Source: Erwinia sp.
GTDB lineage: Bacteria > Pseudomonadota > Gammaproteobacteria > Enterobacterales > Enterobacteriaceae
NCBI GenBank assembly: GCA_003512805.1
Contig: DOOK01000251.1
Coordinates: forward strand, 1 to 10,826
Direction of reading: 5' to 3'
DNA: 10,826 bases
Position numbers and translations under genes: made by a program. Positions 3,704-10,826 of the stretch are shown one piece after another. How positions within the stretch are numbered: the stretch's first letter is position 1; each line of letters starts with the position of its first letter. The notes under the pieces are model-generated. The model had not been told where the DNA came from and made no database searches. It saw only the letters and a list, made by a program, of their open reading frames with translations.

Positions 3704-3943
3704 ATGCAACATGCCCTGAACAAAACCGACATGAACACCTCTGTTTCAGCATTTTTTACCCGCGCAGCTCTGCCATCACAGCAGGAGACGCTGGGTTCAG
3801 TCGCCTTAGAGATACTCCGTTCAGGCCGAACCCTGAACCGTAAAGCCATTTGCGTACGCCTGTTGGGACGTATTGATACAGCGACTTCAGTCGAAGAAGA
3901 AATGCATCTACAGGAACTTATTGGACTTCTGTTCTGCGAATAA
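3704..3943 (+). CDS. ycgZ: YcgZ-like two-component connector protein
   Basis: The 79-residue product closely resembles E. coli YcgZ as I recall it. The segment SQQETLGSVALEILRSGR (25-42), then NRKAICVRLLGRIDTAT (45-61) and the end LIGLLF parallel the same blocks in YcgZ and in the wider YcgZ/YmgA/AriR (YmgB) family of small helical dimers. In E. coli these act through the RcsC-RcsD-RcsB phosphorelay to raise colanic acid and lower curli, and are induced by blue light at low temperature. The ATG at 3704 follows CGGAG with a seven-base gap, and family length supports it. ymgA follows 76 bases later, giving the same order as in E. coli, but the third and fourth genes of the E. coli operon (ariR, ymgC) are not seen. 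A probable operator lies just upstream. Confidence 0.85.
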   Translation: MQHALNKTDMNTSVSAFFTRAALPSQQETLGSVALEILRSGRTLNRKAICVRLLGRIDTATSVEEEMHLQELIGLLFCE

Positions 3944-4019
3944 AGGCTACATTCTGAGCTGACTTTGCAGCCGGACGCGACAGCCATGACTGACAGCCTA
4001 CCCCTTTCAGGGAACGACA

Positions 4020-4292
4020 ATGAAAAAAGAAAAATATGAAAAGCTTAGTGAAATCATCATTGGTGAAGCGGTGCTTTCTCAACTAAGGGAAAAATCTTCT
4101 GTTTCATGGCATGCTATTCTTATCAAACTTGAAAGTTTTCTTCACGCCGAATTAAATAATGAAAAAATTTGTGCAGCCATGCTGGCTATTCAAAATGTTA
4201 AAAAAGAGATTAACCTGAACAGTTTCCGTCTTTCAGGTAACAGAGTCACCATGCCAGCCGCCAACGACAGCATTAATATTAATAAAAATTAA
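4020..4292 (+). CDS. ymgA: YmgA-like connector protein
   Basis: The 90-residue product has the same length as I recall for E. coli YmgA and a similar first half: EKYEKLSEIIIGEAVLSQLR matches the E. coli pattern of a polar start, then ITGQAVLQILR, and WHAILIKLESFLHAELNNEK follows as the second predicted helix. The tail (RVTMPAANDSININKN) is polar and probably disordered. There is no signal peptide or membrane segment, so it should be cytoplasmic. The expected role, modulating the Rcs phosphorelay alongside YcgZ, is taken from the family. The ATG at 4020 follows CAGGGAACGACA, a good ribosome binding site. It is more AT-rich than ycgZ. Divergence is high in this family, so the exact paralogue name is less certain than membership. 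Confidence 0.72.
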   Translation: MKKEKYEKLSEIIIGEAVLSQLREKSSVSWHAILIKLESFLHAELNNEKICAAMLAIQNVKKEINLNSFRLSGNRVTMPAANDSININKN

Positions 4293-4827
4293 AGACCAGA
4301 TTAACGCAACAACGCTTGCCAAATAATATTTTTACACTCGATTACTCTTCAGATACTTTGCGGAAAGCATAAAGATAAAAAATAGCGCTTAAGGCCATCA
4401 TCTTTTCCTTAAAAGATTCTGGCCCAGTATCCCGTAACGCTGTTCTTTATCTTGCCGCCGGGATGATGACGGCTTGCTGTTGATAGATAAGGTGTGCCGT
4501 CCCGACAGTGTCTTAGGGGAAATTATCAATGATTCGGGAGCGCAAAACTGCCGAAGTGAGTGTTAGAATTAAGTGGATAACAGATATGGCCTTACTGGCG
4601 TAACTCTGGCCGTGATAAAAACAGAATCTTTTCTTTTCCATGCCAGAATGAAACTTTTAAAAAAATATCAGCCCCTCTATTACCCCGTCTCACCCTTTAA
4701 AACTGACAATCAAAGATCCCCTACATACCCCCTTCTTTCCATTTGAAAAAATGCCAACATCTTCTGAGAAAAAAGCTACCTACCCCAAAAAAACATGGCT
4801 GTCCTCGCGTCCCTTATAAATTGCTAA
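4293..4827. other. Non-coding stretch after ymgA
   Basis: No gene is supported here. Two tiny frames, one per strand, lack convincing starts. Notable items are the hairpin at 4393-4424, a weak 6-bp repeat GACGGC/GCCGTC (4468-4501), and an AT-rich section (4620-4800) containing five runs of four or more C on the plus strand. The expected ariR and ymgC were looked for and not found. Confidence 0.55.
4393..4424. other. Strong hairpin downstream of ymgA
   Basis: GGCC, a 3-base bulge, ATCTTTT, loop CCTT, AAAAGAT, a 3-base bulge, GGCC: a perfect 7-bp stem with a tetraloop, closed by four further GC pairs. It lies 100 bases after the ymgA stop. No T-run follows on either strand, so it could be a 3' stability element or part of a small RNA. 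Confidence 0.5.
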
Positions 4828-5282
4828 CTCGATGTTTACCCCATTAATGCCGACTTTCTGATAGCGCATTTTCTTGCCCGGCTATACGTTAAAACAGACC
4901 GTTCCTCTGTACTTATTGAAAGAGCCCGACAGGATGGCAACGAGTACGAAGAACAGGCGGCAACGTCGACAACAAGTATCCGGGAGAAAGGCCTGAATAT
5001 CCTGGCACTGAGATGCTGCACATCACAGGTTAGGAAAATTATACTCGTTGCGGTAACATTCTTCACAAAAACCCGGTCAATCATCTGGTGGCCGGAGAGC
5101 CGGACATGACAGTCAGCACAACATATAAATACTGGCTCTCCCGGTTTGTTAACTTGCCAGCGGATAAAGAAGCCTTGAAAGCCGTTACACTGCTTGTTAA
5201 CGGTGGCAGGAATGGCTTTACTCAGAGGCACCTGAGCCGGGACGTATTAAAAAGGAAAGAGGGATCGCTCAATGAATATTAA
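4828..5282 (+). pseudogene. Broken GH19 (lysozyme/chitinase-like) gene
   Basis: Two frames together read like the glycoside hydrolase family 19 domain of phage endolysins and secreted muramidases, enzymes that cut the glycan of peptidoglycan or chitin. Frame one (from 4828) reads INADFLIAHFLARLYVKTDR, matching the family block IAHFLAQ..HE(S/T)G. Near 4950 the similarity moves to a second frame (GGNVDNKYPGERPEY, then MLHITG), where TAG at 5031-5033 interrupts the GRGLIQITGR-NY motif. It resumes as ENYTRCG..., YKYWLSR and VTLLVNGGRNGF, the typical NGG.NG end. So I see a frameshift, an in-frame stop, no proper start, and VKT where the family has its catalytic HE(S/T). The intact tail from ATG 5106 (58 codons) overlaps the next gene by 11 bases. 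Prophage endolysin or secreted antibacterial effector are both possible origins. Confidence 0.72.
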
Positions 5283-5610
5283 AATTGCCGTTGCATTAAG
5301 TTTGATACTGACTATGTTCAATGCCTGGGGGGCGACGGAGCAATCGTCGCTAACCTGCCAGGGTTCAGCAATTAGGGATGCAAAAAAACTGCTGTCATTC
5401 TATCGGGATAATGATGACAGGATCTCTGTTGATAAAAAAGTGACGCCTTTGGCAAAGATTAAGAATCCGCAAAATGCCATGCAAAAATTCGATGTTTTTG
5501 AAACCTGGGGATATATCTATAAAGGCAAATATCGTATGCGCTTTATGTACTATTCGGATGTTGATTGTCTCCTGATGGGAGAGGAAATACTGGAGTATGC
5601 AAATCTGTAA
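5272..5610 (+). CDS. Small exported two-cysteine protein, possible immunity protein
   Basis: The 112-residue product opens with a clear Sec signal peptide, MNIKIAVALSLILTMFNAWG, with cleavage likely near residues 20-21. The mature part is about 92 residues and has two cysteines, Cys29 and Cys99, that could form a disulfide in the periplasm. A charged middle (DAKKLLSFYRDNDDR) is followed by a strand-rich aromatic part (TWGYIYKGKYRMRFMYYSD) and ends LLMGEEILEYANL. I do not recognise a named family. The ATG at 5272 follows AGAGGGATCGCTCA. It overlaps the decayed GH19 gene by 11 bases, so the two were probably cotranscribed. Because GH19 enzymes attack the wall, a small periplasmic protein encoded directly behind one is a natural candidate for its cognate inhibitor or immunity protein. 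That role is inference. Confidence 0.8.
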   Translation: MNIKIAVALSLILTMFNAWGATEQSSLTCQGSAIRDAKKLLSFYRDNDDRISVDKKVTPLAKIKNPQNAMQKFDVFETWGYIYKGKYRMRFMYYSDVDCLLMGEEILEYANL

Positions 5611-6148
5611 GGATCATATTATCTACAGGCAGCACGTTTCTTATCCTGTAGTCACCCGCAATAAACAGACCAGTGCATTGCCTGACTAACTGCGCCATTG
5701 CAGGGGTTTTATTGGCACATTTCAGGAGGCAACCCTGTTTGATATTACAGAGGAAGCCTTGGAGCGTGAAGAGTCGGAGCGTACGCCAGCGCTGAATAAT
5801 CGACAGCACCGGCTACGTCGCCGCCAGTTTGTCGCAACGGGGTGGCGATAAGCAAGCGCAGCCGGGCACCCGCTATTGCTGGCGGGAGTACCGGGGAATT
5901 ACAGACGGGAATCTGCCAGCGTCAGGAAAGAAAAGCCCACTCAGAGCGCGGCGCACTCCCCTTTTGCGTCAGACAAACAGACTAAAAAGATGACCGTGCT
6001 GCCGCCTGGCAGATACCCGGCCCGTTAATGGCGGGCCTGTTTCGTGCGTGTAGCGAACGAAATGAAAGCATGAGTCCCCCCTTAAACATCTGCTGCCGCT
6101 CTCGCCTGTTCTGGCCGGATAAACAGCACAGCAGATCTGTTTTTTTGA
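5611..6148. other. Gene-poor stretch with degenerate frames
   Basis: No gene is supported. A plus frame at about 5686-5850 has no ATG or GTG; it has AGGAGG followed by CTG, and ends LRRRQFVATGWR. A frame after it (about 5799-5990) is also open but has no start. Hairpins occur at 5869-5886 (CCCGC/GCGGG) and 6019-6037 (GGCCCG/CGGGCC, followed by TGTTT). The stretch ends at the recombinase fragment and is probably debris of the same element. Confidence 0.5.
6019..6041 (+). terminator. Weak terminator-like hairpin
   Basis: GGCCCG, loop TTAATGG, CGGGCC, then TGTTTC: a 6-bp GC stem with a poor T-tract. No intact gene lies directly upstream. Confidence 0.3.
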
Positions 6149-6352
6149 CAGGCGCAACGAAGACCCTTGCCCGACATCCCCCTATCCGTTGTGCAGGAAA
6201 GGGGTTGGCAAAATATCAATATCCTTAGGCGATATGCTCACTTTTCATCAGGCCATTTATCCCTGCACGCCAGGCGTATTGATGATATTTTTAACCAGAA
6301 TGTCCCAAATCTGTCCCATACTGATTTTAAGAGTGGCACAAATAGCAATTAA
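6149..6352 (+). pseudogene. C-terminal fragment of a tyrosine recombinase (integrase)
   Basis: After a TGA at 6146-6148 the plus strand is open for 67 codons. It contains IPLSVVQERGWQNINILRRY followed by AHFSSGHLSLHARRIDD and IFNQNVPNLSHT. This is the end of the catalytic domain of phage-type integrases (usual form: PL..LQ..GW.s..Mv.RYAHl.p.HL..hA..id.if), including the nucleophile tyrosine in RRYAH. The other catalytic residues (the two Arg and the HxxR region) and the whole N-terminal part are missing, so the gene is a remnant. It ends 9 bases before yoaB, in keeping with an element once integrated at the edge of the conserved core. I see no tRNA beside it and could not define attachment repeats. 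Confidence 0.82.
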
Positions 6353-6361
6353 GGTTTTGAT

Positions 6362-6712
6362 ATGTCTAATGAAATAGTAAGAATCGACCCGGAACACCGC
6401 ATGTCAGAAGCGGTAGTGCATAACGATACGATTTATTACACCAGCGTACCGGAGAACCTGGACGAAGGCGCCGAAGCGCAGACTGCCAACGCGCTGGCGG
6501 TCATTGATCGTATTCTGACCCGACTGGGTTCAGATAAAAGCCGTATTCTGGACGCCACGATTTTTCTGGTGAACAAAGAGGATTTTCCGGCGATGAACCG
6601 CGCCTGGGATGCCTGGGTTTCGCCAGACAATGCGCCGGTACGCTGCACCGTGCAGGCCGGACTGATGAACCCGAAATATCTGGTTGAGATCAAAATTATC
6701 GCCGCCAGATAA
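6362..6712 (+). CDS. yoaB: RidA/YjgF-family protein YoaB
   Basis: The 116-residue product is close to E. coli YoaB throughout, with blocks TIYYTSVPENLD (23-34), RILDATIFLVNKEDFPAMNR and APVRCTVQAGLMNPKYLVEI (91-110). It belongs to the Rid superfamily of cytoplasmic trimers. The best-studied member, RidA, hydrolyses reactive enamines and imines such as 2-aminoacrylate. Arg94, in the APVRC block, corresponds to the conserved active-site arginine of the superfamily. YoaB itself has not been assigned a firm substrate that I recall. The start at 6362 follows TTAAGG with an acceptable gap. The gene is the first conserved one after the accessory region. It converges on yoaH and shares a strong hairpin with it. 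Confidence 0.95.
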   Translation: MSNEIVRIDPEHRMSEAVVHNDTIYYTSVPENLDEGAEAQTANALAVIDRILTRLGSDKSRILDATIFLVNKEDFPAMNRAWDAWVSPDNAPVRCTVQAGLMNPKYLVEIKIIAAR

Positions 6713-6718
6713 ACTGAT

Positions 6719-6738
6719 GGCGCACCGGTTGGTGCGCC
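6719..6738. terminator. Bidirectional hairpin between yoaB and yoaH
   Basis: GGCGCACC, loop GGTT, GGTGCGCC: a perfect 8-bp GC-rich stem placed 6 bases after each of the two convergent stop codons. T-tracts are poor on both sides, but the position fits a shared 3' end. Confidence 0.7.
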
Positions 6739-6744
6739 ACTCTG

Positions 6745-6990
6745 TTACTCTTCTTCGTCGTCAGCGTCGTCGTAATCAGCCCGCCCGCGCGCGTTTTCCT
6801 CACCTTCTTCATCTTCATCTTCATCGTCGAAACGAACGGCGATCATTTCGCCCGTATGCGTTTCGCGAATTTCAGCTGCCACCAGCTGGATAGCCTGCCC
6901 GCTGCTCATGCCGTCGGCCATCAGTTCCTGGATGCGCTCCACTGCCTGTTGCTGCTGCTCAAGCGACAGCGCCGGTAAACCACTAATCAT
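6745..6990 (-). CDS. yoaH: UPF0181 protein YoaH with extended acidic tail
   Basis: Residues 1-53 (start [20 protein letters not shown], then [20 protein letters not shown]) match the UPF0181 family protein YoaH of E. coli, which I recall as about 59 residues. This protein has 81. The extra part is an almost purely acidic tail ([11 protein letters not shown], then [11 protein letters not shown]), encoded by CTTCAT/GTCGTC-type trinucleotide runs that could vary in length by slippage. No function is established; the small helical N-terminal domain is cytoplasmic. The ATG at 6990 follows AGGAGCAATT, a strong ribosome binding site, and matches the family start, although the frame is open further up to 7107. 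It is divergent from pabB across 110 bases. Confidence 0.92.
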
Positions 6991-7061
6991 AATTGCTCCT
7001 GTTTCAGTCGCGAGAAGTATTCCACGCGTAACAAACAGATGCCAGTAGCAGAAAAATATGT

Positions 7062-7080
7062 CAGGCTTATTGCCTGTTTT
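7062..7080 (+). promoter_or_regulatory. Hairpin with T-run just upstream of pabB
   Basis: CAGGC, loop TTATT, GCCTG, then TTTT, ending 20 bases before the pabB start codon. It has the form of a small intrinsic terminator, so it might attenuate pabB transcription or be incidental. No clear Shine-Dalgarno sequence precedes the pabB ATG. Confidence 0.3.
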
Positions 7081-7100
7081 AGTTCTGATCTGCTTAAACC

Positions 7101-8462
7101 ATGCCACCTGTTTATTATCCTCTGCAGTATACGCCCGAATCGCTCGGGGATCTGTTTACTGTTATTGCCCATCAGCCTTGGGCGATGCTGCTGGATTCCG
7201 GCTTTGCGGAACACAGCGACAATCGCTTCGATATTATGGTTGCCGATCCCATTGCCACTCTGGTCACCCGGGGCGGCCTGACCCGCATCATGCGTGACGG
7301 CCAGCTCACAGAAAGTGAGGCGGATCCGCTGGCTCTGCTGAACCAGTCGCTGCAAGAAAGCAATCTGCAGGCGACTGAAAACAGCGACTACCCTTTTCAG
7401 GGCGGCGCGCTGGGCCTGTTCGGTTACGATCTGGGGCGGCGTTTTGAGAAGCTGCCGCAGCTGGCGAAGCCGGATTTAACCACGCCTGATATGGCCGTCG
7501 GTCTCTATAACTGGGCGCTGATTGCCGATCACCACCGTCAGACTCTGACACTGGTGACGCATGGCGACGCCGAACAGCGGCTGCGCTGGCTGAAGGCACA
7601 AACGCCACTGCCGACGGAGCCTTTTCGCCTGACCAGCGACTGGGTTTCTAACATGAGCCGGGAAGCCTATGGCGAGAAGTTCCGCCAGGTTCAGGCGTTT
7701 TTGCGCAGCGGCGATTGCTATCAAATTAACCTGGCGCAGCGCTTTCAGGCCCGCTACAGCGGTGATGAATGGCAGGCGTACAGGACATTAACCCGCCAGA
7801 ACCGGGCGCCTTTCAGCGCCTTTGTCCGCCTGCCTGACAGTACGATATTAAGCCTTTCGCCCGAGCGCTTTCTGCAGAGTGCAGAGGGCAAAATTGTCAC
7901 TCGTCCAATTAAAGGTACGCTGCCGCGCCTGAGCGATCCGCAGGCAGACCGTCGTCAGGCAGAAAAGCTGGCGCAGTCGCCTAAGGATCGGGCGGAAAAC
8001 CTGATGATTGTCGATCTGCTGCGCAACGATATTGGCCGCGTGGCTGTACCCGGCACGGTAAAAGTCCCGGAGCTGTTTGTGGTGGAACCTTTCCCGGCGG
8101 TACATCATCTGGTCAGCACCATCACCGGCACGCTGAAACCGGAGCTAACGGCCTGCGATCTGCTGCGCGCCTGTTTCCCCGGCGGCTCTATTACCGGCGC
8201 TCCGAAAGTGCGGGCGATGGCTATTATTGATGAACTTGAACCGCACCGTCGCCATGCCTGGTGCGGCAGTATTGGCTACCTCAGCGTCTGTGGCCGCATG
8301 GACACCAACATCACTATCCGTACGCTAACGGCGGAAAATGGCCAACTTTACTGTAGCGCAGGCGGTGGTATCGTCGCCGACAGCGATGAGCAGGCGGAAT
8401 ATCAGGAAACGTTTGACAAGGTAAACCGTATTCTTCCCTGCCTGGAGCACTATCATGCCTGA
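7101..8462 (+). CDS. pabB: Aminodeoxychorismate synthase component 1, PabB
   Basis: PabB converts chorismate to 4-amino-4-deoxychorismate, using ammonia passed from the glutaminase PabA, in the cytoplasm; PabC then releases p-aminobenzoate for folate. The 453 residues equal the E. coli length. The N-terminal domain (1-170) carries [19 protein letters not shown] (98-116), and the chorismate-binding domain follows (about 185-450). Diagnostic motifs are SLSPERF (251-257), RPIKGTLPR (268-276) with Lys271 as the catalytic lysine that separates PabB from TrpE (which has alanine there), [19 protein letters not shown] (296-314) and [13 protein letters not shown] (361-373). All are intact. nudL starts inside its last codons, so the two are translationally coupled. 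The start lacks an obvious ribosome binding site but fits family length. Confidence 0.97.
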
Positions 8463-9027
8463 TTCGTCACCGACGCTGCAGCAGTTCATCACCCGTTTTC
8501 TGCTGCAGCGGCCCGAGCCTGCCGTGCTTCAGCTGCCCACACGTCAGGCGGCAGTGCTGGTGCCGATTATTAACCGCCCGCGGCCTACGTTGCTGCTGAC
8601 CCGACGCGCCGCCACGCTGCGCAAACACGCCGGGCAGGTCGCCTTCCCCGGCGGAATGCGGGATGATGAAGATCGGTCATTGATTCACACCGCGCTGCGT
8701 GAAGCGCAGGAAGAAGTGGCAATTCCGCCAGAAAATGTCCAGGTCATCGGCGTGCTGCCGCCCGTCACCAGCAGCACCGGCTTTCAGGTCACGCCTGTAG
8801 TGGGCATCCTGCCCGATCGTCTTGCCTGGCAGGCCAACGAAGCGGAAGTGGAATCGGTATTCGAAATGCCGCTCCAGGAGGCGTTACGGCTGGGCCGCTA
8901 TTCGCCGTTGGATATTCATCGCCACAGTGCGACGCACCGGGTCTGGCTTTCCTGGTTTGACGACTATTTTATCTGGGGCATGACTGCGGGCATTATCCGG
9001 CAGCTCAGCCTACAGACAGCAGAGTAG
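8455..9027 (+). CDS. nudL: Coenzyme A Nudix hydrolase, NudL
   Basis: The 190-residue protein matches E. coli NudL (YeaB), a Nudix enzyme expected to split coenzyme A into 3',5'-ADP and 4'-phosphopantetheine in the cytoplasm. The CoA-specific signature [13 protein letters not shown] lies at 55-67, directly followed by a Nudix helix [11 protein letters not shown] (80-90) with the metal-binding REAxEE glutamates. After it come [20 protein letters not shown] (97-116) and the C-terminal [20 protein letters not shown] (161-180). The ATG overlaps the end of pabB by 8 bases and is preceded by GGAG within pabB, so coupling is likely; E. coli has the same gene pair. No intrinsic terminator follows directly, but a terminator-like hairpin lies at 9149-9193. 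Confidence 0.96.
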
Positions 9028-9118
9028 CGCTTTCGCACAAAATAGCGCCGGTTACCCACTTTGCCAGCGGTTTAAAATGAAAGGGAGAGAAAATTCCCTG
9101 TTTTAGTTTGCCTGCCCC

Positions 9119-9146
9119 TTCACAATTAGCGTAAATCCTTTATATT
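9119..9146 (+). promoter_or_regulatory. Sigma-70-like promoter upstream of sdaA
   Basis: TTCACA, 16-bp spacer, TATATT. If used, transcription would start near 9153 and give sdaA a leader of about 205 bases with a hairpin directly after the start. Confidence 0.4.
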
Positions 9147-9148
9147 GC

Positions 9149-9193
9149 AGCGCAAATACGTGGCCCCGAACAGAACGGGCTGCGCTTTGTTTT
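9149..9193 (+). terminator. Terminator-like compound hairpin in the nudL-sdaA gap
   Basis: An outer stem AGCGCA/TGCGCT (9149-9154 and 9181-9186) encloses an inner CCCG-aacagaa-CGGG stem, and TTTGTTTT-like sequence follows. It is either the 3' end of the pabB-nudL transcript or an attenuator for sdaA. Confidence 0.5.
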
Positions 9194-9358
9194 GCCTTAA
9201 TTAAGATTGGCCAGAAAAAAGGCGCAAAACTGAATGTGATGCGGCTAGCAATAACTTTCCTGCCAGAAGAAGATTAGTTTATTTCATGCGACTATCGTTC
9301 CCATGATGATTACCATTGAATACTATCCAGCAATTTACTGCGGACCCGGGAGCAGAAT

Positions 9359-10723
9359 GTGATTAGCGTTTTCGACATGTTTAAGATCGGCATTGGCCCA
9401 TCCAGTTCCCACACGGTGGGACCCATGAAAGCCGGCAAACAGTTTGTTGACGATCTGGTCAGCCTGGGCAAATTAACGGATGTCACGCGTGTTGCCGTAG
9501 ACGTTTATGGTTCGCTTTCCCTGACCGGTAAAGGGCACCATACCGATATCGCGATTATTATGGGCCTGTCGGGCGCCTCGCCGGAAAGCGTGGATATTGA
9601 CGGCATTCCGGCCTTTATTCGTGACGTAGAAACGCGGCAGCGTCTGCTGCTGGCCGCAGGCGCGCACGAAGTCGATTTCCCACGCGAAGGCGGCATGGTA
9701 TTTCGCAGCGATAACCTCTCTTTGCACGAGAACGGCATGCGCATTCACGCCTTTGCCGGTGAAGAGCTGATCTACAGCAAAACCTACTATTCTATCGGCG
9801 GCGGCTTTATCGTTGACGAAGAGCATTTCGGCCAGTCCACGCTGAACGAAGTCTCGGTACCCTATCCGTTTAACTCCGCGAAAGAAATGCTGGCGCACTG
9901 CCATGAAACAGGTTTGTCGCTTTCCGGTATGGTAATGAAAAACGAGCTGGCGCTGCACAGTCGCGCGGAGATCGAGCACTATTTCGCGGACGTCTGGCAG
10001 AGTATGCGCGACTGTATCGATCGCGGGCTGAATACCGAAGGCGTTCTGCCTGGCCCACTGCGCGTTCCGCGTCGCGCCGCCGCGCTGCGTCGCTTGCTGG
10101 TTTCCTCAGACAAGCTCTCCAGCGACCCCATGAACGTTATCGACTGGGTAAACATGTTCGCGCTGGCCGTTAACGAAGAGAACGCGGCAGGCGGACGGGT
10201 GGTGACGGCGCCGACTAACGGCGCTTGCGGTATCGTGCCGGCCGTGCTGGCCTATTACGATCACTTTATCGCCTCGGTCAGTCCCGATATCTTTATCCGT
10301 TATTTTCTGGCCGCTGGCGCGGTAGGTATTCTGTATAAGATGAACGCTTCTATTTCCGGTGCGGAAGTCGGCTGCCAGGGCGAAGTGGGCGTCGCCTGTT
10401 CAATGGCGGCGGCGGGACTGGCAGAGCTGCTGGGTGCCAGCCCGGAGCAGGTCTGCGTGGCGGCAGAAATCGGCATGGAACACAATTTGGGTCTGACCTG
10501 CGATCCGGTAGCCGGTCAGGTCCAGGTTCCCTGTATTGAGCGTAATGCTATCGCTTCGGTAAAAGCGATTAACTCAGCGCGCATGGCGATGCGCCGCACC
10601 AGCGAAGCACGCGTGTCGCTGGATAAAGTCATTGAAACCATGTACGAAACCGGCAAGGACATGAACGCCAAATACCGCGAAACGTCTCGCGGCGGTCTGG
10701 CAATAAAAGTACAGTGTGACTGA
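9359..10723 (+). CDS. sdaA: L-serine deaminase I (iron-sulfur), SdaA
   Basis: SdaA deaminates L-serine to pyruvate and ammonia with a catalytic [4Fe-4S] cluster. The 454 residues equal E. coli SdaA in length and are very similar throughout. The N-terminal domain begins [20 protein letters not shown] (1-20), with the SSSHT phosphate/serine-binding loop. The catalytic domain has [15 protein letters not shown] (282-296). Cluster cysteines are Cys339, Cys381 and Cys392, with the 42- and 11-residue spacing known from the family; the C-terminal Cys453 is the tail cysteine seen in type 2 enzymes to occupy the active site until substrate binds. The start is GTG, as in E. coli, behind GGGAGCAGAAT. It forms a single unit with its own upstream region and a terminator. 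Confidence 0.98.
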
Positions 10724-10728
10724 TTTCC

Positions 10729-10756
10729 CCAGCGCCCTTTGCGGCGCTGGCTTTTC
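10729..10756 (+). terminator. Rho-independent terminator of sdaA
   Basis: CCAGCGCC, loop with CTTTGC, GGCGCTGG, then CTTTTCT: an 8-bp GC stem with a short T-tract, 6 bases after the sdaA stop. Confidence 0.85.
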
Positions 10757-10826
10757 TCCTGCCGCTCCCCTTTGCTTCTTTCAACCAGCAAGCGCCTGTT
10801 TAAACCCGTTTTTCCTTTCCGGGAAC

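Follow-up and report, generated by a model that had tools for sequence, protein, structure and literature searches.

A putative orphan immunity gene beside a decaying GH19 wall hydrolase gene in an Erwinia-like chromosome

Among the closest described systems is the pair XAC2609/XAC2610 of Xanthomonas citri, in which a GH19 peptidoglycan hydrolase effector is inhibited by its cognate immunity protein (PMC10933484). Immunity genes may also stand alone, and orphan immunity genes of the type VI secretion system (T6SS), retained after the effector was displaced or absent, were described in the available text on V. cholerae immunity arrays (PMC5361080), as were orphan T6SS immunity genes in the S. 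Typhi immunity islet (PMC7400221). In Pantoea and Erwinia, hcp/vgrG islands were reported, in the part of the study at hand, to carry variable cargo including predicted wall hydrolases, and PANA_4143 was likened there to chitinase G of Streptomyces coelicolor (PMC3235180). Moreover, a lysozyme-like effector of Pantoea was described, in the excerpt available, as a VgrG with a glucosaminidase domain. Chitinase G of S. coelicolor is presumably a GH19 enzyme. Here, we analyzed a stretch of 10,826 nucleotides (hereafter, the window) carrying a broken GH19 gene and an intact gene for a 112-aa protein, and comparison with relatives supported the reading that the latter is probably the retained half of a former pair, namely, an immunity gene orphaned by the decay of a GH19 effector of the T6SS.

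A decayed GH19 gene and its intact neighbor

The setting of the window is the chromosome of a plant-associated, Erwinia-like bacterium, in which a RidA-type gene at position 6362 (PF01042 match) is followed by a UPF0181 gene and, beyond it, by genes that resemble, by eye, pabB, a NUDIX gene, and sdaA. Among the genomes compared, the nearest locus was that of Erwinia sp. 198 (L001), with 87% identity over 6177-10819 and 82.5% identity over 65-889, and a GH19 remnant and a 112-aa gene lie at the same place there. Upstream of the locus, phage remains with 75 to 80% identity were observed at 2125-2296 and 2445-2727, matching Erwinia phages vB_EhrS_49 (Rz1/spanin) and vB_EhrS_59 (hypothetical), while a YmgB/AriR-like small gene at 3704-3943 scored just below the Pfam cutoff (22.2 versus 22.3 bits) and a 90-aa open reading frame (ORF) at 4020-4292 had no Pfam or PHROG match. 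The window contained no Hcp match and no RNA family at gathering scores, and the promoter scan gave promoter-like sites not above shuffles, that is, not above chance. Positions 4300-6170 had no match in Escherichia coli genomes, and positions 3900-6400 had no DNA match among plasmids.

By using intact relatives as tblastn queries, what is left of a gene for a small GH19 wall hydrolase was found on the plus strand at 4786..5270, which confirmed the initial annotation of a GH19 fold in pieces on that strand. The first piece (4786..4965, plus strand) corresponds to approximately residues 50 to 109 of the Erwinia typographi protein and contains an in-frame TAA at 4825-4827, and the second (4950..5264, plus strand), lying in a different frame, corresponds to approximately residues 108 to 214 and contains, at 5031-5033, the TAG that had been noticed at 5031; the frame shifts near 4950 and again near the 3′ end. 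The gene had been taken to start at 4828, where GH19 sequence is indeed present, but the homology begins about 40 bases earlier, at 4786. The E. typographi protein (L003) matched the remnant at E = 1.1e-37, followed by those of Pantoea (L002; 4e-34) and Rosenbergiella (L015; 9e-32), whereas the best match of the GH19 queries elsewhere in the window had an E value of 0.60. The 64-aa open piece of the window GH19, taken alone, had no Pfam match, and the remnant is assigned to PF00182 because the intact GH19 neighbors in relatives match this family (45.3 and 34.2 bits against a cutoff of 25.5).

The catalytic motif, previously given as a lost HE(S/T), is lost in substance, although its wording needs correction, as the Enterobacterales relatives have V-E-T at this site and the window has V-K-T. 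The Glu was present in 11 of 11 aligned intact GH19 proteins, and from its position in the motif we take it to be the catalytic Glu. Because this invariant residue is replaced by Lys, the window copy is, judged by its sequence, a dead member of the family. In our reading of the alignment, the GH19 of Pantoea anthophila (L009) still has Glu at the motif site, and the Glu-to-Lys change thus seems to have arisen on the branch leading to the window.

The neighboring gene, a complete 112-aa ORF at 5272..5610 (plus strand), shares 11 bases (5272-5282) with the last GH19 piece, exactly as initially annotated, and its completeness, homologues (n = 130), and constraint mark it as the intact gene of a putative orphan periplasmic immunity protein. 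It is preceded at 5254..5264 (plus strand) by a purine run that resembles, by eye, a ribosome-binding site and is similar in Erwinia sp. 198. The signal peptide claimed earlier corresponds to a signal-peptide-like N terminus of about 21 residues (5272..5334, plus strand), recognized by eye from the translation, and the two cysteines proved to be Cys29 and Cys99, invariant in 35/35 aligned sequences, which perhaps form a disulfide holding the fold. No Pfam, NCBIfam, PHROG, or PADLOC match was found for the protein. AlphaFold predicted a cystatin-like fold of one helix on a four-stranded sheet and, within the signal-peptide-like N terminus, a low-confidence helix at residues 3-16. A PDB fold search with this model returned nothing at E ≤ 0.001, and the absence of X-Tfi, PliI, and Tsi1 from the PDB fold matches listed proves nothing; a search for solved relatives by sequence gave a single chance-level match, a NUDIX hydrolase (E = 0.37). 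The best BFVD match to the model was an uncharacterized 127-aa protein of Klebsiella phage vB_KpM_FBKp24 (E = 3.7e-3, TM 0.62, 23% identity), possibly a phage-borne relative of the predicted fold, and tblastn of another member of the 112-aa family in phages gave chance matches only.

Gene neighborhoods, type VI linkage, and spread of the 112-aa family

To describe the neighborhoods of the 112-aa family, 41 loci were collected in one scan of genome contigs with the family alignment, and neighboring GH19 genes were scored with GH19 queries (E ≤ 0.001) in the available flank of each locus. A GH19 gene or remnant was located near the 112-aa homologue in 17/41 loci, a result compatible with the proposed link to an upstream wall hydrolase, and none was found in the flanks of the remaining 24. 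As a measure of background frequency, 20 GH19 matches were present in 14 of 15 genomes, with one to four per genome. The Enterobacterales set comprised 22 loci, namely, 16 of the 41, five from whole genomes, and the window. The 112-aa gene is immediately preceded by an intact GH19 gene in 10 of them (L002, L003, L005, L008, L010, L011, L015, L060, L061, and L062, with L008/L010 and L011/L060 being close kin); GH19 is broken in eight (the window, L001, L004, L006, L007, L009, L012, and L063, the softest calls being L007, close to a contig end, and L012, with a single frame shift) and absent in four (L013, L014, L039, and L059). Outside Enterobacterales, GH19 was adjacent in 4/25 loci (L023, L024, L025, and L036), lying downstream of the 112-aa gene in L024 and carrying a stop or masked bases in L025. 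The GH19 proteins of L023 and L036 share just 31% and 26% identity with the E. typographi protein, suggesting that the link between GH19 and the 112-aa gene is old; against PF00182 (cutoff, 25.5 bits) the former scored 20.4 bits and the latter gave no match, and both are therefore GH19-like by alignment only.

Other arrangements were also observed. In five loci of Lysobacter, Pseudoxanthomonas, and a Xanthomonas (L017 to L020 and L027), the 112-aa gene stands right behind a trpG-like gene (named by eye), with no GH19 found in the flank. In L014 (5017-6324) two genes precede it, one with a Tlde1 domain and one for an exported-looking protein of 143 aa, as if it were paired with, or stacked behind, another effector directed at the wall.

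In four loci (L005, L011, L060, and L061), Hcp (PF05638), GH19, and the 112-aa gene occur in a row, so that Hcp is directly upstream of GH19 in 4/10 intact pairs, and in L005 the Hcp and GH19 genes overlap by four bases. Thus, the pair appears to form a T6SS module in these relatives. Moreover, a signal-like segment is seen by eye at the start of the 112-aa proteins but not of the intact GH19 proteins, as expected of an injected effector and a periplasmic immunity protein. Hcp itself is common in this group, being present somewhere in 15/15 genomes of the Enterobacterales set. Among 17 further genomes, 15 of them outside Enterobacterales, PF00182 matched in nine and Hcp in 10. Hcp was detected in 8/15 genomes outside Enterobacterales, and the seven without it include L025 and L036, both with a GH19 pair, which makes T6SS delivery doubtful there. 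The T6SS link is thus weak outside Enterobacterales, and the frequent occurrence of the 112-aa gene without T6SS in those genomes speaks for an inhibitor of broader use rather than one serving T6SS alone.

The three GH19 proteins nearest to the window remnant are all paired with the 112-aa gene. The paired proteins of L005, L008, and L011 matched the remnant at 1.5e-18 to 1e-23, and two Hcp-linked GH19s without a 112-aa partner were about as near (9e-20 and 6e-22); farther off were Erwinia sp. 198's other small GH19 (1e-12) and an endolysin-type GH19 of E. typographi (3e-5). In the reverse direction, a GH19 profile was run against 295 genomes of the family, giving 70 matches at E ≤ 1e-20, and the six best (E ≤ 1e-103) were the six with an intact GH19 adjacent to a 112-aa gene. 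This ranking is partly circular, since five of the six genes had themselves gone into the profile and the sixth shares 98% identity with one that had; the gap below them is not by construction, as no unpaired GH19 scored near the top six. The next two matches (8.5e-75 and 6e-68) both adjoin Hcp without a 112-aa gene, and the four neighborhoods inspected among the next five matches are likewise Hcp-adjacent without it.

Two Hcp-linked GH19 genes without a 112-aa partner, in a second locus of E. typographi (L094:2279-3873) and in Paramixta (L095:5122-6775), have in its place a convergent, exported-looking gene of 166 to 178 aa, perhaps another immunity family. As an alternative partner this gene was dropped, the protein search with the L094 product having returned its own E. 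typographi record only. The sister genome, that of Erwinia sp. 198, has two other GH19 matches (a 563-aa frame and a 186-aa ORF), both unlike the paired subtype; the 186-aa GH19-like ORF, which is open and of another subtype (L100:2778-4254), adjoins an ORF resembling Tlde1 by eye, together with the neighbor of the latter.

The 112-aa family was present in 10/295 genomes of the enterobacterial family (one copy broken), in 4/37 in the genus of Erwinia sp. 198, in 3/61 in that of Pantoea sp. AS-PWVM4, and in 11/198 genomes in the family of a Lysobacter; identification as a housekeeping gene was ruled out by this patchy occurrence. Two distant protein matches were on plasmids of Allochromatium and Gloeothece, and with its core kept, the family reaches from Enterobacterales to the Gloeothece plasmid and a cyanobacterial MAG. 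Among 50,697 phage records, none matched the protein at E ≤ 1e-5. Among IMG/VR viral contigs, the window protein as query found none and the family alignment found two (L108 and L109), both carrying integrase genes, with an intact GH19 pair between the integrase and a primase-helicase-like gene in L108 and an orphan 112-aa gene near the integrase and a DUF943 gene in L109. In Kosakonia-like DNA (L108:1191-8076 and L010:7607-9937), an intact pair was seen near a D5/primase-helicase-like gene, accompanied in L108 by the integrase, so that a satellite-like or integrative element may be its carrier. In L109 (352-4895), the orphan gene is accompanied by the DUF943 gene and five similar 120- to 129-aa membrane-like ORFs, and this region may be an immunity-gene array; a DUF943 gene likewise lies beside the pair in L009.

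Decay of GH19 and constraint on its partner

Decay of the effector with retention of its partner recurs in other lineages, as the 112-aa frame is open in 7/8 loci with a broken GH19, and the lesions differ between loci. Only the last 55 to 64 residues of GH19 are left in L004 and L001, the start is missing or out of frame in L006 and L009, frame shifts occur in L012 and L063, and stops and shifts occur together in L007 and the window. Counted against the orphan-immunity reading are the broken 112-aa genes of P. anthophila (L009), where GH19 is broken as well, and of L039. In a tree of 24 genes (21 from Enterobacterales, leaving out L039, and three outgroups), the window, L001, and L009 formed one clade (support, 100/99), and the fewest changes of GH19 state numbered seven when broken and absent were pooled as lost, with several deep forks being poorly supported.

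Between the window and L001, the 112-aa gene had a dN of 0.099 and a dS of 0.70 (dN/dS, 0.14), a sign of purifying selection, and the C-terminal GH19 piece (59 codons) had a dN of 0.287 and a dS of 0.89 (ratio, 0.32); the two genes differed in nonsynonymous (p = 1.2e-4) but not in synonymous (p = 0.56) change. Changes on the window branch were polarized by L001 and L009, giving counts that are small and a branch that also spans the time before the loss. On this branch, neutrality was rejected for the 112-aa gene (74 codons; N 8, S 13; 4.4e-5) and not for the GH19 remnant (47 codons; N 15, S 9; p = 0.08). The odds of an amino acid change were 3.4 times higher in the remnant than in the 112-aa gene (p = 0.007), with equal silent rates (p = 1.0), while the N:S contrast between them was not significant (p = 0.14). 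The N:S of the GH19 piece was 4:7 on the L001 branch and 0:5 on the L009 branch, so that the GH19 breaks of these two look recent and separate. In the window, the putative cognate effector gene is broken and the putative immunity gene is intact, the state expected of an orphan immunity gene.

Alternative readings and comparison with known systems

The proposal of an orphan immunity gene, made in the initial annotation, is supported by the adjacency of the two genes in relatives, the rows with Hcp, and the recurrent effector decay, and we regard it as well supported by comparison while keeping the function itself putative. From the decay, linkage, and constraint observed in this analysis, we infer the following course. 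In relatives, the small GH19 without a signal peptide would be injected into rivals by the Hcp-linked T6SS and would cut peptidoglycan in the rival's periplasm. The 112-aa protein, presumably exported to the periplasm by its putative signal peptide, would most likely bind the incoming GH19 and block its active site, by analogy with XAC2610. In the window lineage, the GH19 gene has decayed, while its partner would have stayed under selection for the protection it may give, probably because neighbors still fire intact GH19.

The presence of 24/41 loci without GH19 nearby and the lack of an Hcp match in 7/15 non-Enterobacterales genomes count against a narrow T6SS reading and favor a general inhibitor that acts in the periplasm on GH19 or on other wall hydrolases, is comparable to the lysozyme inhibitors, has no T6SS tie, guards against phage lysins or the secreted enzymes of rivals or predators and is paired with a GH19 effector in some lineages only. 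The five copies behind a trpG-like gene are also in line with this explanation, as is a core conserved from Enterobacterales to the Gloeothece plasmid and the cyanobacterial MAG, unlike many fast-changing immunity proteins. However, the occurrence is patchy even within families (10/295 and 11/198), which is ill suited to a housekeeping role, and the adjacency to GH19 is strong where present, so that we consider such an inhibitor unlikely, its difference from the orphan-immunity reading being one of breadth more than of mechanism. More speculatively, and with somewhat better prospects, the 112-aa proteins could form a family, widespread and unnamed, whose cystatin-like members inhibit GH19 peptidoglycan hydrolases. 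They would be aimed at a conserved enzyme site rather than at one variable toxin and would serve in several phyla as free-standing shields, also without T6SS, and being paired with an effector would be just one of their uses; we hold this only tentatively.

It is very improbable that the 112-aa gene has been purposeless since the loss of GH19 and has merely not yet decayed. Such a passive leftover would agree with the breakage of both genes in P. anthophila, with the loss in L001 of Arg50, a residue nearly invariant in the family, and with the nonsignificant N:S contrast with the remnant, but neutrality is rejected on the window branch for the 112-aa gene (4e-5) and not for the remnant (0.08), and the frame is open in seven of the eight broken-GH19 loci. 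A phage lysis cassette, of which a GH19 endolysin and a small partner would be the remains, was suggested by the phage-like DNA upstream (2125-2296 and 2445-2727) and by endolysin families being the best PHROG matches of the intact GH19 relatives. Although two integrase-bearing IMG/VR contigs do carry the 112-aa gene, we rejected this origin as barely credible, since the remnant is far nearer to the paired E. typographi GH19 (1e-37) than to the endolysin-type GH19 of the same strain (3e-5) and the 112-aa protein is without a match in the phage records at E ≤ 1e-5 or in PHROG.

The orphan-immunity reading would give a role open to testing to a family that lacks Pfam and NCBIfam matches and extends from Erwinia as far as a plasmid of Gloeothece, and immunity to GH19 effectors would then be served by a second fold. 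The window, Erwinia sp. 198, and P. anthophila represent stages in which the effector was broken by different lesions and the putative shield was kept twice and lost once, and in this clade competition experiments could directly address the idea of a shield outliving its weapon.

Orphan immunity is already known, and the 112-aa family, like the association of its members with small GH19 effectors linked to Hcp, seems undescribed; the Hcp-GH19-112-aa module, the family, and the predicted cystatin-like fold were not found in the literature searched, a body of text that leaves out most subscription papers. GH19 as T6SS cargo, as proposed here, is known from Tce9 of A. baumannii, although with 532 aa (PMC6833914), and from the WHIX effectors, although with C-terminal extensions (PMC12135965), in the portions of those reports available, whereas the GH19 genes of the relatives here are free-standing ORFs of approximately 190 to 235 aa, in four loci beside hcp. 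The study of hcp/vgrG islands concerns the same bacterial group, and its accessible text mentions neither immunity nor a partner of the 112-aa type (PMC3235180). TfcB of Stenotrophomonas maltophilia is a bactericidal effector of GH19 fold delivered by type IV secretion, and the available part of its description includes no 112-aa-type partner (PMC11253643). Like the pair proposed here, the X-Tfe XAC2609 and X-Tfi XAC2610 are, in the accessible sections of that work, a GH19 effector with an immunity partner (PMC10933484). Their delivery, however, is by type IV secretion, whereas the pair in our relatives is linked to type VI, and XAC2610 (residues to 267) forms a beta-propeller like PliI and Tsi1, whereas a helix and four strands are predicted for the 112-aa protein (PMC10933484, as far as its available text goes). 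Finally, the V. cholerae arrays and the S. Typhi islet, as portrayed in the excerpts at hand, consist of several genes, whereas the window has a single gene with its decaying effector still recognizable alongside (PMC5361080, PMC7400221), and the putative retention of immunity after effector loss in the window matches what was proposed for the V. cholerae arrays in the available text (PMC5361080).
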